This document shows positions 584 to 13,986 of a stretch of DNA of 22,709 bases, in pieces; the stretch's first letter is position 1; every line of letters begins with the position of its first letter. Under the pieces are notes generated by a model. It worked only from the letters and a program-made list of their open reading frames with translations, was not told the DNA's origin and ran no database searches. The DNA lies in IMG/VR virus record IMGVR_UViG_3300029787_000297, positions 1 to 22,709 of that record; one strand, 5' to 3'. This DNA comes from a virus. A program made the translations under genes and the position numbers.

Positions 584-775
584 ATGCAATTAAAAAACAG
601 ACGCCCGTGCGTAACTACGCGCACGGAAAATTTTCATTTTTCAATTTCTTTTGACCCCGACACAGGACAGCCCGTAGAGTTTTTTATAACAGGAAGAGGC
701 AAGGTTGGGCAGCAGCTTGACCTTGAACTTTATGACCTAAGTGTGGCCGCATCAAAGCTGATGCAGGGGAAATGA
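584..775 (+). CDS. TSCPD-like small protein (63 aa)
   Basis: The ATG at 584 is preceded by GAGG (574-577) at good Shine-Dalgarno spacing. A TTG four codons upstream is less likely. After a polar start comes a beta-strand-like F-H-F-S-I-S-F, then D-P-D-T-G-Q-P-V-E-F-F-I, G-R-G-K-V-G-Q, and a helix L-S-V-A-A-S-K-L-M-Q. This resembles the TSCPD fold known from ribonucleotide reductase C-termini and from small stand-alone phage proteins (a strand with 'G.P.EvFi', then 'gK.G', then a helix ending in Q-G). The biochemical role of stand-alone members is not established. It is the last gene of the left + strand cluster before the att region. Confidence 0.55.
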   Translation: MQLKNRRPCVTTRTENFHFSISFDPDTGQPVEFFITGRGKVGQQLDLELYDLSVAASKLMQGK

Positions 776-805
776 TTTACATAAAATACTGTAGGTCACG
801 ATAAA

Positions 806-829
806 ATTTGCAAATCATTTACAAAATAT
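806..829 (+). repeat. Direct repeat copy A, candidate integrase arm-type site
   Basis: This copy shares ATTTGCAA, then 3 bases with one match, then ATTTACAAAA with the copy at 1014-1037; about 20 of 24 positions are identical. It lies 91 bases left of the att core. A shorter related element, ATTTACATAAA, occurs just after the preceding stop codon. Tyrosine integrases of the lambda type bind such arm sites with their N-terminal domain; that assignment here is an inference from position. Confidence 0.6.
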
Positions 830-920
830 CTGTCATTAGGGGTATACTAGGACTAACTACAGTGGTACTAAGGCATTGAGAAGACTGTAAGTTCTTGATT
901 CCGTTGGACCTCAGAACACA

Positions 921-965
921 CTCATAACCTGAAGGTCGTAGGTTCAAATCCTACCCCCGCAACCA
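921..965 (+). other. attP: att core: 3' half of an initiator tRNA-fMet gene
   Basis: The segment reads from a CTCATAA anticodon loop (anticodon CAT) through the variable loop, the T arm (GTAGG / TTCAAAT / CCTAC) and the acceptor 3' strand CCCCGCA, to A-CCA. It matches initiator tRNA-fMet as remembered, especially alphaproteobacterial forms with the CTCATAACCTGAAGG sequence. The 5' half is missing: upstream bases do not pair with the anticodon 3' strand, and no CGCGGGG-type acceptor 5' strand exists. This is the usual situation for an att core that restores the tRNA gene on integration. The integrase lies 174 bases downstream on the same strand. Confidence 0.85.
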
Positions 966-982
966 ATGATATCAATAACTTA

Positions 983-1011
983 GCCGTCTTCTCCCTGAAG
1001 GCGGCTTTGTT
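983..1011 (+). terminator. Rho-independent terminator-like hairpin behind the att core
   Basis: Arms GCCGTCTTC (983-991) and GAAGGCGGC (997-1005) pair over 9 bp with one G-T wobble around a 5-base loop. TTTGTT follows at 1006-1011. The T-tract is short, so strength is uncertain. It sits 17 bases after the tRNA CCA on the arm that would stay next to the restored tRNA gene after integration, and upstream of int. Confidence 0.55.
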
Positions 1012-1013
1012 GC

Positions 1014-1037
1014 ATTTGCAATTTATTTACAAAAATG
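1014..1037 (+). repeat. Direct repeat copy B, candidate integrase arm-type site
   Basis: This is the partner of the repeat at 806-829, in the same orientation and about 20 of 24 identical (ATTTGCAA and ATTTACAAAA blocks). It lies 48 bases right of the att core. One copy on each side of the core gives a P-O-P' layout. Confidence 0.6.
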
Positions 1038-1051: not shown

Positions 1052-1072
1052 TAAGGCTGTGACCTTCAGTGC

Positions 1073-1138: not shown

Positions 1139-2287
1139 ATGCCAACAGTAACAAAGAAACAGGGCGTGCGTCCTGTAATACCCAACAAAAAGTATATGAT
1201 TGATTTGCGCGGCAAGGGCGCTGATGTTGAACAGGAAACATTCCACGGCACGTTTAAACAGGCGCAGGATTACAGAGAAAAAAGATTGGTGGAGTTGCGA
1301 GAACCAAAAAAACGCAAAGCAAACGAAGCACCCGACACGGTGTTTGATGCGTGCCAATTATTCTTGGCTGTGCAGGAAGCACGGATTGAGGAAGGTGAGA
1401 TTGGTAGGGGGGAGTTCGTCAACAAGACGCGACACCTGAACCAGATGTGCGGCGTTCGTATCGGCAACAAGACTGTCGGTAGCTTGACCCTGGACGACGT
1501 GACGTATGAAATCTTGAACGAGAATGTCAAAAAATCATTGGGGAAAAATCGCGCTAAGAAGACAGTGCGGCGTGCCTTCGTCACCATCAAGCAGATGATG
1601 AAGTGGTGCGAGGATAAGGGATGGTTTGATAAATCCCCAGCCGCTGCAATTAAGATTTCTTTGAAGGGTGAGAAGCGCCAAGAGTTACGCCGCATTAGCC
1701 CAAATGAAATGCGTAGCGTTATTGAAGCGGCGCCAGAGAAGTACCGTAAGGTAATCCAGTTTGCTGCCTACACTGGGCTGCGTGCTGGAGAACAACGGGC
1801 GCTAACGTGGGACGATGTGGATTTGGACATGGGGTATGTTCATGTCCGATCAGCTATCAAATGGGATGGTGAACTTGGGGCGCCTAAGACTGATAAAAGT
1901 GAGCGGTCTGTGCCATTGCCTGGGACGGTCATACAGATGCTGCGCGAATGGAAAATGCGTCAGCCTCTAAAAGAGCGCACCAACAACCTCGTCTTTCCTA
2001 CAAGCATGGGATACTACGCCGACCACTGCAACTGGCGTAACCGTGGGCTGCAAGCTACATGCTTACAGTTGGGGTTGGACAAGATGACATGGCACGATCT
2101 GCGCCACTTCTACGCCAGTGTTTTAATTTTTGATGCAGAGGTATCTGACCCGCAAGTGGCAGCGTTTCTTGGCCACAGTGATCTCGGGTTTACGTATAAA
2201 GAATATGCCCGCTACTTTGCAGACCGAGACCGTGACGTTGTCATTGGCAAGTCATTAGATCGTGTGTTCAAAGCTAGTGGTCAGTGA
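1139..2287 (+). CDS. int: Tyrosine site-specific recombinase (phage integrase)
   Basis: This 382-aa protein would catalyse integration of the phage at the tRNA-fMet site and, with an unseen helper, excision. The N-terminal part (about residues 1-60) is basic and strand-rich like an arm-binding domain. Residues about 66-160 resemble the SAM-like core-binding domain, and 185-375 are catalytic. The catalytic set is complete: Arg215 in T-G-L-R-A-G-E, Lys about 250-253, His319/Arg322 in W-H-D-L-R-H, His346 in L-G-H-S, and nucleophile Tyr356 in T-Y-K-E-Y. The ATG has GGAGG six bases upstream. It is the only rightward gene after the att region, and its 3' end overlaps the convergent nuclease gene by 14 bases. 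Confidence 0.95.
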   Translation: MPTVTKKQGVRPVIPNKKYMIDLRGKGADVEQETFHGTFKQAQDYREKRLVELREPKKRKANEAPDTVFDACQLFLAVQEARIEEGEIGRGEFVNKTRHLNQMCGVRIGNKTVGSLTLDDVTYEILNENVKKSLGKNRAKKTVRRAFVTIKQMMKWCEDKGWFDKSPAAAIKISLKGEKRQELRRISPNEMRSVIEAAPEKYRKVIQFAAYTGLRAGEQRALTWDDVDLDMGYVHVRSAIKWDGELGAPKTDKSERSVPLPGTVIQMLREWKMRQPLKERTNNLVFPTSMGYYADHCNWRNRGLQATCLQLGLDKMTWHDLRHFYASVLIFDAEVSDPQVAAFLGHSDLGFTYKEYARYFADRDRDVVIGKSLDRVFKASGQ

Positions 2288-7337: not shown

Positions 7338-9743
7338 CTAGTTAACGGCTTCAGTTGGCCTTATGTAGAAATCTTGTCCGGTTTCTTCGTGTACGCGCTT
7401 TTCAAAATTGCGGGCAAACCCTGGCTTTATGTATTCGGCCATTTGCCACCACAGCATGTAATCCAATGCTGTGCGGGCGTACCAAATATTAGCGCCGGGG
7501 ATCATTGACTTGGCTGTGCGGAATGTTTTGTAGGTCAACCTGTCAGTATCGCCTTCAATTAAATCGTTAATAGAACGAGTTGTCCTTAAAACTGTTCCTA
7601 AAATTGGCCCTCCAACAGCTTCTGCAAATCCAACATTTAAACGCTGTTCACCGCCTATCGCTCCAATGACTAGATCACCATAGAACCCAGCACCACCAGC
7701 AGTCATAAACGCATCAAAAAATGCCTTCATGCTTGGCTCCCTAGGCTCCTTACCAGCAGCAAGATCCTTTGCCAGATTTGCAATATACCCGTACACAGTC
7801 ATGCTTAGAATTAGATGGAGGCCGTATCCTACCTTGCTACCTTCGTTTTTAAATGCCCTAGAAATAATTTCTTGAGTGTATGCAATGCTGAATGATTTTA
7901 GATGGAAAAACAGCATTGAAATTTCCGTCATTGGTTCACCGCGTTTACCGGCGCCCCTTATCAATGCGTTCGTTCTAGCCCCTGGTGTAAGCACGGCGCT
8001 GTCGGCAAAGCCGCCGAAAAACTCTTTCATCTTCAACGCAAAATCTGCGTCTAATATATAATCAACATCTATATATGTTTTGCCTTCAACGTCGCGCACG
8101 GCGTTTTTTAACGTTGCCCAATTATCTGGTGTAATTCCGTAAGCAGACATTTCTGCCCTAAGTTGTGGGTGTATGGCGTCAAAAGATTTGCCCACTTGTT
8201 TAGATATGTAGTTAGCAAGAGTTAATGTCGCGGCTGTCTTCATGCTGTCGTTAAGCCAATTCATGCCGGTAACACGCATCACCACACTAATGAGGTTTGA
8301 ACCTTGCCCATTGATGCCGTCATTACCCAGCCAGCGAGATTGTACGCCAGAAATCAGGCTGTCCATTCCTATGGCCATGCTGTCCGCAACGTCTCGCGTT
8401 TCGCCTTTACCTCTGCCACGGACAAGAACAGACAAGACAGAAGCGTGTGCTTCTAAAAATGGAACGCCTACATCTGCTAATCTTGTTGCTGTTGTCCCTG
8501 CGTCTGAAATTGACGTAAGCACAGTGCCGCCTAGCAATGCACTACTGGATAAATTTTTTCCCCAATTTGTTGCTCTTGCTAAAAACCACCCTGTTGCTTT
8601 GTACGGTGGCAAGATCGACGCAGCGCCTGTCACCTCTTCATACATGCGTTCGATGTATTTTGGATTAATCTTATTTGCTATTTCCTGATTGTTACGCAAT
8701 TTACTCCGCGCCCGGTCTATGACTTCATCTAACATAGATTGTGGGTTCGGCCCCAAGTGCATCATCGCCGCAACGCTGCGCGACATCATGTCTACGCCAC
8801 CAAAAAAACTAGTTCCTACATCCGGTAACCCGTATTGTTTCATGTAAGACCATGCGCTTTGGCCATCTTTAAAATGCAATGATCTGTGATGGCCTAGTTG
8901 CTTGGCCATGTTACCTGGACCTTTAAAGCCAGGAGGCGCAGATAAATCTTTTACAATGTCGTCACGGCGCCCGCTAATTATTGTCGCCCATGATTTTTCA
9001 AGATGCTCCACCTTTTGTGCATCTGTCATCTTTCGCCCAAAAGTTCGCTCTTCGTCAAGAAACGGCAAGATGTCTTTAATCCACTGGTCCCTGCCAGCCC
9101 TATGAACCTTCAAACTGTCATGAGATTGCTTCACTAAATAACCGGGTATCTTGGCAATGTCGGCGCCGTGTTTGTTAGCCGACTTCCTTAAAAACTCGTT
9201 CGCATCCTCCATTGCTTCTGCGATAACTTTAGCGGTTCTATTGCCTGTACTTCCCGGCTCATAACTTTCACGCATAAGCAACTCACCGTTTTCCGCGTTA
9301 CGCAGAAACGCCATTCCTTCAGCCCGTGGCACACCGTTAGCCTCTATATTGCGAGCGAACATAACTTGAGCTTGTCGTTCAAGCGCACGGAATGTGCTTT
9401 CAACAGATCTTTTGTATGGGCTGTTGCCATACTCTCCCGCCATAATGCTTTCAAGAAATTTAGGAATATCTTTGTCAGGGATTTCGCGCAGCCGCTGTAT
9501 AAACTTTAACCGCGTTTTATAGTTTAACGCTCTGTTGCGCTTTTCGTTAATCGCAGCGCGTTCCTCTTGCGCCACCCTTTCGTTGACCGCTTTCTTTAAT
9601 TCAGCGTCCAGATCGACAACATTCTTGTCGGCTTGCAGCCGTTCTAAAATATCAACAACTTCGTCTTTCAGTTCCTTTGCTTGCTGTTCGTTTAAATTCG
9701 GCGCAGCTTGCCGGATGGTTGCAACGCAATTATCAAACGCCAT
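7338..9743 (-). CDS. Internal virion protein, C-terminal half of a gp16/large polyvalent-type protein
   Basis: This 801-aa protein starts at an ATG overlapping the preceding stop as TAATG; a GTG eight codons upstream is less likely. Residues about 12-90 are a charged helical, probably coiled-coil region. The middle has N-L-S-S-S-A-L-L-G-G-T-V-L-T-S-I-S-D-A-G. The C-terminal third has H-L-K-S-F-S-I-A-Y, G-Y-I-A-N-L-A-K-D-L-A-A-G-K-E-P and G-G-A-G-F-Y-G-D. This series of motifs is typical of the C-terminal region of large podovirus internal (ejected) virion proteins. The role would be part of the inner core that helps DNA cross the cell envelope. The partner N-terminal half is the gene immediately upstream. 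Confidence 0.75.
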   Translation of the reverse strand: MAFDNCVATIRQAAPNLNEQQAKELKDEVVDILERLQADKNVVDLDAELKKAVNERVAQEERAAINEKRNRALNYKTRLKFIQRLREIPDKDIPKFLESIMAGEYGNSPYKRSVESTFRALERQAQVMFARNIEANGVPRAEGMAFLRNAENGELLMRESYEPGSTGNRTAKVIAEAMEDANEFLRKSANKHGADIAKIPGYLVKQSHDSLKVHRAGRDQWIKDILPFLDEERTFGRKMTDAQKVEHLEKSWATIISGRRDDIVKDLSAPPGFKGPGNMAKQLGHHRSLHFKDGQSAWSYMKQYGLPDVGTSFFGGVDMMSRSVAAMMHLGPNPQSMLDEVIDRARSKLRNNQEIANKINPKYIERMYEEVTGAASILPPYKATGWFLARATNWGKNLSSSALLGGTVLTSISDAGTTATRLADVGVPFLEAHASVLSVLVRGRGKGETRDVADSMAIGMDSLISGVQSRWLGNDGINGQGSNLISVVMRVTGMNWLNDSMKTAATLTLANYISKQVGKSFDAIHPQLRAEMSAYGITPDNWATLKNAVRDVEGKTYIDVDYILDADFALKMKEFFGGFADSAVLTPGARTNALIRGAGKRGEPMTEISMLFFHLKSFSIAYTQEIISRAFKNEGSKVGYGLHLILSMTVYGYIANLAKDLAAGKEPREPSMKAFFDAFMTAGGAGFYGDLVIGAIGGEQRLNVGFAEAVGGPILGTVLRTTRSINDLIEGDTDRLTYKTFRTAKSMIPGANIWYARTALDYMLWWQMAEYIKPGFARNFEKRVHEETGQDFYIRPTEAVN

Positions 9744-11455: not shown

Positions 11456-13986
11456 TATGGTCTACCCGCTATTTTGCCAGCGGTATCAACAGGACGTATA
11501 CGCCTTTTTGTTCTTAGTTCTCTGCTTTTCTTTTTCATATACTCATTGTGCGCCTTGACCTCACCATCAAACGACACACTAATTGGTTTTTTGTTAGCAT
11601 CTTGAATTAAACGCCCGGTAGCGTCAGTTAGGTTTGCCTTGGTGCCGTCTTGCGACATGATCCAAATGGCACTGCCAGAAGTAAGCAACGAACGCATTTT
11701 CTCTTGGGCAACTTCCTCCGTGTCACCTGCCCCAATAAGATTGTCAAATGGCTTTCTATAAAATTTTACATCAGGATTACGCTCAACCCACGTACGTAGT
11801 GCGGTTTGCACCCGGCTTGCATCAAACTCGCTTTGGTCTGCTCTGTCACTTTTAGCAACAATGCCGCGCAATCTTGGCAAGGAAACAACGAGATAGTTGT
11901 CACTAACAATGTCGTTGTAGGCTTTATCAACAGCCTTATCGACAGATAGACCTGATCGCATATAACCAAGCGCAATTAATTCAACAGCGTTGCGAGATGT
12001 GTTAGCCAAACCAACACCACGGTCTCCCGCTGCACTTGTTACGTCGTTCATTTTAGCCGTTAAAACTTTTGACAAATCAGCCGTGTCAACACTTTGCTTT
12101 AATTCTTGCGTCGTCGCTTGGCCCATCAAAGTAATAAGGCGGTCCTGCACGTCTTTATTATCAACCATCATTATGGTGGCAACGCGGTCATCTAATTTGG
12201 CGCCTGTTAGTTCGTTTAACAATCCGTCGAAATCGTCACCCATAACCTCGCGCAGCCTGTTAATTTCATTAACAACAGATTGCGGATTGTCTTCCATCCG
12301 TTTCGACAAGTCGCTGGCAATCGCTGTTACATACTGCTTTGGCAACAACCGTCTGTTGGCCTCTGGTATACCCAGCCGTTCGAATTCTGTTTGCCGCACT
12401 GCTGCAAAGTCTTCGTATGTTTCCGGGGTTTGATTGGCACCACTTTCCGCAAATTCCTGGTAGCGTTCACGCGCTGCGTTGCTTGATGATAAAATTGCTT
12501 GCGCGGGGTCTTTGCTTCGAAGTGTGTTGATTGCCTTTGCTGCTTTTACAACCATAGCTGCGTTGCTTTCACGCAATCTTTGGATTTTTTGTGTTGGCGC
12601 AGTTTCGGTTGCTGCTTCTCCCGCTTCTGCAACAATTTCTGTCTGCAGACTAGGGGCAGCACTTTGCAAAGCGATATTTGTTGATGCAATAGTAACTACT
12701 TCGTCGCGTATTTGTTTTAACTCTTCTGCTGCTTTTGGGTCTGCGACATTAGCTGCAATTGCTTCATCACTAATTGCTTCCTCTTGCGCTTCTGTCGGCG
12801 TGCCTGTTTTGCTTATAGCATTAAGGTTGCGTCTAAACTCGTCCGCATAATCAGCGCCACGTCTATCTAATATTGTTTTAATTCTTGCTACGCCGTCAGT
12901 CCGCTGCTTGAGATTTTGCAAAATTATTTCTGCGTTAGCGCCGGTAGAACCTTCCGTAGCGTCAGCTTCAAGGCTTTCTGCAATATCTAATAACGCTTGT
13001 GTTGATAAATTTTGATCTAGCTTGTTTCTCGTATCTTCATATCCAATTTGATCCTGAAATCGGTCACGTAAAACCATTGCTTTTTCTGTATCGTGCATGT
13101 TTGCAACAAGGCCATCTATAACTTCTCCACGCACTTTTTCACTTGTGTTTCCTCCCGCTTGGCTGATTTTGATAAGCATGTTTACTTTTTTTTGTATTTT
13201 TGTGTCATGCGCGTTTCTCTCAGCCCGACCTTGGCTTTCCAACTGCTTAATTTTTTGCTTTGCTTTGTTAGTTAAAGATGCGCGTTGTCTGCCAGTAAGG
13301 TGAATAAATTTATCTTCGCCTTCCTGTTCTTCTAACTGCCTTTTTAATTTTTGCGGGTTAGCGCCAATTAAAAACTCTGCCCGCGCAAGATCCGAGTTAT
13401 TTAAAAATTCTCTATATTTCCTCTCACCATCATCAGCAGAAATTACACGGTTTGCATACGCTTGTTGAAGAAGTTCCCTAGCATCATCCATCCGCGCCAT
13501 ACGATCCTTAACAGTGTCGTCTGGTCTTATTGCATTAGCTAGTGCCGTTAAATTAGTAACAAGATTAGCCTCTAACTTTTGACGGCCACGAATAATGCCA
13601 TCCTTCTGCACAGCGATTTGTGACCGTGCCACCATCTCACGGGCTGCACTGTCAAAAGAACGCTGGGCATTCATCGACAGACCGTTGCCCGCTTCTGCAA
13701 TAATTGCTTCTGCTCGTTCGGCAAAGGTACTCATTGACCCTATGGGGTCTTCAGTTTGTAAATCTAATTCTAATTGTTGCAGCTTTAGTTGCGCGTTGAC
13801 CCTGGCTTGATGCGCTGCATCGTCATCCGCTGCCTTTAATAGACCAAAGCCTACTTGTGCTAACTGATTACCAACACCAGCAACCGCCCGACCAATATTG
13901 TTTTGTTGCGATACACCTCGCGCACGCTGCACGCCTGACGTTGCTAAAGCGCGACTTTGGGATGTGTATGTGGGTATTCGTGCCAT
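11455..13986 (-). CDS. Internal virion protein, gp15-like
   Basis: This 843-aa, almost entirely helical protein is rich in Ala, Gln, Arg, Glu and Asp, with no membrane segment. The N-terminus (M-A-R-I-P-T-Y) is followed by R-A-V-A-G-V-G-N-Q-L-A-Q-V-G near residue 32, then long coiled-coil-like helices. Size (T7 gp15 is 747 aa), composition and position between a gp14-like and a gp16-like gene identify it as the core/ejection protein equivalent to gp15. That protein forms a periplasmic conduit with gp14 and gp16 in T7. Sequence similarity to T7 itself is not obvious by eye. The ribosome-binding site TAAGGA (13993-13998) contains the stop of the preceding gene. Confidence 0.75.
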   Translation of the reverse strand: MARIPTYTSQSRALATSGVQRARGVSQQNNIGRAVAGVGNQLAQVGFGLLKAADDDAAHQARVNAQLKLQQLELDLQTEDPIGSMSTFAERAEAIIAEAGNGLSMNAQRSFDSAAREMVARSQIAVQKDGIIRGRQKLEANLVTNLTALANAIRPDDTVKDRMARMDDARELLQQAYANRVISADDGERKYREFLNNSDLARAEFLIGANPQKLKRQLEEQEGEDKFIHLTGRQRASLTNKAKQKIKQLESQGRAERNAHDTKIQKKVNMLIKISQAGGNTSEKVRGEVIDGLVANMHDTEKAMVLRDRFQDQIGYEDTRNKLDQNLSTQALLDIAESLEADATEGSTGANAEIILQNLKQRTDGVARIKTILDRRGADYADEFRRNLNAISKTGTPTEAQEEAISDEAIAANVADPKAAEELKQIRDEVVTIASTNIALQSAAPSLQTEIVAEAGEAATETAPTQKIQRLRESNAAMVVKAAKAINTLRSKDPAQAILSSSNAARERYQEFAESGANQTPETYEDFAAVRQTEFERLGIPEANRRLLPKQYVTAIASDLSKRMEDNPQSVVNEINRLREVMGDDFDGLLNELTGAKLDDRVATIMMVDNKDVQDRLITLMGQATTQELKQSVDTADLSKVLTAKMNDVTSAAGDRGVGLANTSRNAVELIALGYMRSGLSVDKAVDKAYNDIVSDNYLVVSLPRLRGIVAKSDRADQSEFDASRVQTALRTWVERNPDVKFYRKPFDNLIGAGDTEEVAQEKMRSLLTSGSAIWIMSQDGTKANLTDATGRLIQDANKKPISVSFDGEVKAHNEYMKKKSRELRTKRRIRPVDTAGKIAGRP

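Follow-up and report, generated by a model that had tools for sequence, protein, structure and literature searches.

Attachment sites on tRNA-Met(CAT) genes are already known, and phages of Alphaproteobacteria commonly target the initiator/Met(CAT) tRNA. Integration of the HMO-2011-type roseophage CRP-3 at tRNA-Met(CAT) has been verified by sequencing and PCR (PMC6918029), and many tyrosine-integrase prophages are found at tRNA-Met(CAT) in Paracoccus (PMC6536676). Partial tRNA genes serving as attP in marine phages were reported in 2013 (PMC3861242), and the mycobacteriophages Fionnbharth and LeBron have cores in the anticodon-loop region, flanked on either side by paired putative arm sites (PMC10865867). 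Given the precedents of CRP-3, Paracoccus, and the mycobacteriophages, the attP described here is itself of a known kind.

The window (the whole stretch of DNA analysed; 22,709 nt, IMGVR_UViG_3300029787_000297) comes from a 25-kb virus record. Apart from the attP and integrase region it consists, on the other strand, of a podovirus-like late region with genes for a head-tail connector, protease, major head protein, tail proteins, internal virion proteins, holin, and endolysin. Matches to CRP phages suggested an HMO-2011-type origin, which is disfavoured because the integrases lack significant similarity and int is placed elsewhere; the portal comes closest to those of other podoviruses. Just upstream of attP, positions 10-321 encode the C-terminal portion of a protein resembling phosphoadenosine phosphosulfate reductase (phrog_424), and an 843-aa protein encoded among the internal virion genes (11458-13986) lacks any PHROG match. 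The window yielded no identifiable gene for an excisionase or a repressor, which counts against the integration scheme proposed below.

The attP core and its target tRNA

The core (921-965, + strand; CTCATAACCTGAAGGTCGTAGGTTCAAATCCTACCCCCGCAACCA) is identical to the 3' portion of tRNA-fMet, 45 nt running from the anticodon loop through CCA, exactly as claimed in a preliminary description of this DNA; it opens with the initial base of that loop and lies 173 bp upstream of int. The core is identical (45/45) to alphaproteobacterial tRNA-fMet, and public bacterial genomes contain the same 45 nt in at least 119 stretches, with few exceptions from Alphaproteobacteria (the level to which the host is placed); at least 119 viral contigs contain them as well. 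ARAGORN detects no whole tRNA in the window, and calls tRNA-Met(cat) when a host 5' half is joined in silico to the phage core and flank. Because phage genes flank the core on both sides and the 5' half of the tRNA is absent, the site is, judged from its sequence context, an attP and neither attL nor attR. Eight host genomes contain 1 to 3 intact tRNA-fMet copies each, which fits both the earlier statement that the cell depends on few initiator tRNA genes and the need for exact gene restoration. The 3' strand of the anticodon stem in the core has T at its third position (CCT), and host genes with the same core have CAGG opposite, giving an A-U pair in these initiator tRNAs where the classical three G-C pairs would be expected.

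Relatives of the integrase consistently carry the same type of core. Ten loci were found in IMG/VR by protein alone, and all nine for which upstream DNA was read have the 3' half of tRNA-fMet in front of int (38 to 45 of 45 bases); in a wider set this holds for every relative with upstream DNA read, from 99% to 45% integrase identity. Differences among these cores are mostly paired changes in the T-stem (GTAGG/CCTAC, GCAGG/CCTGC, AGAGG/CCTCT), a pattern expected of cores that track the tRNAs of different hosts. Among relatives at roughly 33-40% identity are some with tRNA-fMet and some with the 3' half of another tRNA, and the latter also start at the anticodon loop. This shared starting point supports, without proving, a crossover within the anticodon loop, for which positions 921-927 of the core (+ strand) are the presumed overlap region.

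The preliminary description had proposed looking in alphaproteobacterial genomes for tRNA-fMet genes sharing the core and for prophages or integrases directly behind them. The exact core is indeed present in bacterial tRNA-fMet genes; an integrated copy with this integrase was found neither in 385 alphaproteobacterial genomes (cut-off 1e-40) nor in 136 SAR116-order genomes (cut-off 1e-15), about 520 genomes in all. This result would suit the view that the tRNA piece is a chance match or decayed relic and that the true attachment site lies elsewhere, as would the core of one relative (L010, 3223-3267), which is altered in T-stem and T-loop (GGTTCAAAT to GCTTTAAAT) in a way that would leave a defective tRNA upon integration, through either decay or a sequencing error. 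Such a relic is nevertheless very improbable, since the core is kept with compensatory changes down to 45% integrase identity and the geometry of the arms and IHF motifs (below) is fixed across relatives.

Fragments of tRNA-fMet are also present in other genomes. Two SAR116 loci, L472 (AG-390-L20; core copies at 586, 9394, 11079, and 15407) and L473 (592, 3250, and 11597), each contain a single complete tRNA-fMet and, behind it in the same orientation, two or three 3' fragments spread over 11-15 kb. The L472 copies are separated by metabolic genes (PEP carboxylase, cobalamin and cyclase genes), and no integrase matching the profile was found in either fragment region; these arrays look like integration scars. 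In Thioclava dalianensis (L474), a whole tRNA-fMet at 540 is followed 7 kb downstream, at 7549, by an exact copy of the 45-nt 3' portion with an integrase-like ORF just ahead of it, an arrangement that reads as an integrated element whose core boundary coincides with that of the window. In a Rhodobiaceae locus (L171, 1647), the left flank beside the core is the same as in viral contig L094, which suggests an attR, or a phage of the L094 type, in that host.

Integrase, arm doublets, and IHF-consensus sites

The integrase gene (1139..2287, + strand) encodes a 382-aa tyrosine integrase of the lambda type that matches PF00589 (E 2e-20) and phrog_1. Residues R215, R322, H346, and Y356 are invariant in the alignment, the catalytic domain has the Arg..His-x-x-Arg..His..Tyr arrangement, and Tyr356 is the presumed nucleophile. 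A structure model built on six sequences (mean pLDDT 78, pTM 0.52) shows an N-terminal strand-strand-strand-helix domain (strands 10-14, 18-22, and 32-36, then helix 39-54), a helical core-binding domain, and a catalytic domain. Structurally it comes closest to Tn1549 Int (Z 21.0, rmsd 4.1, 282 residues) and to lambda Int 1z1b (Z 19.4 over 318 residues, alignment spanning 4-368); the rmsd of 13.8 to the latter means that the domain orientation is unmatched. On its predicted fold, the N-terminal domain is the putative arm-binding domain of a lambda-type (hetero-bivalent) tyrosine integrase. The lambda-type layout claimed earlier is supported by a three-domain integrase and by relatives that keep the tRNA-fMet 3' half, then the integrase, with paired arm repeats.

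The preliminary description also reported two direct repeats of about 20/24 identity, 91 and 48 nt from the core. The spacings are correct and the repeats (806-829 and 1014-1037) are real, with 19/24 identical bases, and 18/20 over the best stretch compared with 14/20 for the best of 60 shuffles. However, each repeat is better read as two putative head-to-tail 11-bp integrase arm sites, with doublets at 806-827 in the P arm (806..816, ATTTGCAAATC, and 817..827, ATTTACAAAAT) and at 1014-1035 in the P' arm (1014..1024, ATTTGCAATTT, and 1025..1035, ATTTACAAAAA), all on the + strand. By sequence, the core is thus flanked left and right by doublets with an 11-bp period, in the places where a lambda-like attP has its arm-type sites. 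A possible third arm-type site to the left of the P doublet (775..785, + strand; ATTTACATAAA) is weak and single-copy; its ATTTACAT is kept in L002 and L003.

Each attP examined has its own arm unit, repeated at 10-12 bp on either side of the core (e.g., GCGCGTTTT in L004/L255/L256, ATTAACGTT in L260, CCTCACAG in L286, and CCCGCAAA in L108). Under one scoring rule, the doublet layout was detected in 36 of 60 non-redundant attPs and never in eight rounds of shuffling. Variation in arm sequence within a conserved layout is what would be expected of arm sites recognised by an N-terminal domain that itself diverges. Related phages that keep the integrase and lack the repeats had been named as evidence that would count against the earlier interpretation; what the relatives display is a change of arm sequence and a persistence of the doublet layout.

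A scan with the IHF consensus WATCAANNNNTTR identified one site in the P arm (H; 888..900, - strand, reading AATCAAGAACTTA on that strand) and one to the right of the core (H'; 970..982, + strand, TATCAATAACTTA), so that by consensus IHF sites lie between core and arms, as in a lambda-like attP. Among 20 non-redundant attPs, the left motif was present in 8 (0.14 expected), always on the - strand, and the right motif in 12 (0.06 expected), always on the + strand. Their positions are about one helical turn (about 10 bp) apart (-33/-34, -43/-44, and -52; +5 to +7 and +15/+16). The right motif was also detected in 19 of 46 three-prime-half viral contigs (at +5, +13 to +17, and +25), a set fetched by core pattern alone and partly overlapping the 20 attPs. 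An IHF-like motif at +5 or +13 to +15 is likewise present at 8 of 74 intact host tRNA-fMet loci, and the right-hand motif alone is therefore undiagnostic. Its occurrence may in part go back to the host trailer or to earlier integrations; when these host loci were considered as integration remnants, no integrase was detected within 2.5 kb.

Behind the CCA lies a terminator-like hairpin (982..1006, + strand) with a weak T run. The 48 nt behind the core (966-1013) fold at -20.9 kcal/mol (z -5.9), and hairpins are seen by eye at the same place behind the core in relatives; a terminator scan did not list the hairpin at 982..1006 on the + strand.

Outlying half-sites that follow the targeted tRNA

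Outside the arm doublets are two short elements in inverted orientation. The left one (788..797, + strand; ACTGTAGGTC) matches the tRNA half-site CCTGAAGGTC at 8/10 positions, and the right one (1061..1070, - strand; ACTGAAGGTC on that strand), located between the P' arm and int, matches it at 9/10; this half-site corresponds to the 3' anticodon stem and variable loop. Including these elements, the functional region probably extends from about 775 to 1070, broader than the 806-1037 given originally; the IHF sites, 11-bp substructure, terminator, and outlying half-sites are all additions to the preliminary description.

Across 50 non-redundant fMet attPs, the right site matches at 8/10 or better in 26 and at 9/10 in 17, compared with 2.9 and 0.13 for scrambled decamers. 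In sister phages that target other tRNAs, the outlying element is the half-site of the targeted tRNA itself (e.g., GCCGAATGTC at 10/10 in L274, TCAGTGGGTC at 10/10 on both sides in L298, and TCCGTAGGTC at 10/10 in L331), and L282 and L298, with nearly the same surroundings, differ in core and outlying element together. Permutation of the target labels gave p about 2e-4, and the true strength is below this value because fMet accounts for most of the rows and some of the ten remaining ones come from related phages. The other attB half (CCTGACGAGC, 10/10 in L030 and L045) is found in a separate integrase family, and in the CRP phages outlying half-sites are weak and mixed (9, 8, and 7 of 10). No description of target-matched extra half-sites around attP was found in the literature, and this target-tracking is the only possibly new feature of the locus. 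The simplest reading is that the outlying half-sites would be extra core-type sites for the integrase. If the integrase of phage HP1 has core-like sites outside its crossover site, these would give them a precedent.

What such sites might do can be read in two ways. They could be operators through which the integrase represses its own gene near the promoter, in which case they would change with target specificity; at somewhat less than even odds, this is a serious possibility. The right copy, at 8/10 or better, stands between the P' arm and int in about half of the fMet attPs (26/50, with about 3 expected), promoter-like sequence is seen by eye directly after it in several, and KplE1 IntS, with a tRNA-then-int layout and integrase sites overlapping the int promoter, has established autorepression (PMC2951348). 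However, a second, inverted copy often sits at the extreme left, remote from int (L298, L350, L352, L445, L294), the family of L022/L030/L045 has the site at about +112 although at least about 1 kb separates it from int, and a promoter scan gave no Sigma-70 int promoter in the window at its threshold. In KplE1, repression acts via the attL sites themselves, and the passages compared describe no target-matched outlying half-sites.

Alternatively, the elements could be structural, as two more core-type sites that hold the attB-destined protomers until attB is captured. Pairing and inversion like those of attB half-sites, a position just outside the arm doublets, a spacing from the core that varies little (mostly +94 to +104) with a match to the target tRNA, and the other attB half in other integrase families (CCTGACGAGC, 10/10) would all suit this role, and two attP-bound lambda Ints must capture naked attB (PMC4880445). 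A clear right copy is nevertheless present in only about half of the fMet attPs and a left copy in fewer. Lambda is not known to have such an outlying half-site, and a structural role is on balance rather unlikely. More doubtful still is the specific version in which inverted mimics of attB half-sites hold two attB-destined protomers in the intasome and are re-matched at each tRNA switch.

Proposed scheme and comparison with known systems

The best explanation, to which we assign a probability of about 93%, is a lambda-like attP acting at the host initiator tRNA gene, with arm doublets, IHF bending, and extra half-sites, carried by a temperate podovirus-like marine phage of Alphaproteobacteria. 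The integrase would carry out recombination inside the anticodon loop of the host's initiator tRNA gene, and the phage core would become the new 3' half of that gene, restoring the tRNA exactly. A phage-supplied terminator would then replace that of the host tRNA and be followed by int, giving an attL predicted to consist of a whole tRNA-fMet, then ATGATATCAATAACTTAGCC, then this integrase. The N-terminal domains of the integrase would bind the 11-bp doublets on each side of the core, IHF would bend the DNA at the two opposed sites so that arm-bound integrase could reach the core, and the inverted half-sites outside the arms would act as extra core-type sites.

The loci form a large natural series, with many integrases on one target, more than 20 arm sequences, and sister integrases re-targeted to other tRNAs, which could yield a recognition code for arm sites. 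Additionally, the target-matched half-sites make the lambda puzzle of how an attP complex captures naked attB testable.

Among known systems, CRP-3 resembles the window as a marine podovirus whose core overlaps the 3' end of a tRNA gene of the same type (PMC6918029). However, it is an unrelated phage whose integrase has no significant similarity, whose identity begins after the anticodon loop, and whose int lies about 1.6 kb away in the opposite orientation. The Paracoccus prophages differ in being siphovirus-like. Fionnbharth and LeBron share the tRNA anticodon-loop core and paired putative arm sites on both sides, but use another tRNA and other integrases and may depend on a whole tRNA gene of their own. 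In the comparison with lambda, no Xis or Fis sites were identified in the window. The attP and Int of lambda share with the window an arm-flanked core, IHF sites between core and arms, and a three-domain integrase, whereas the window differs from lambda in its tRNA gene target, its arm doublets on both sides, and its outlying half-sites.
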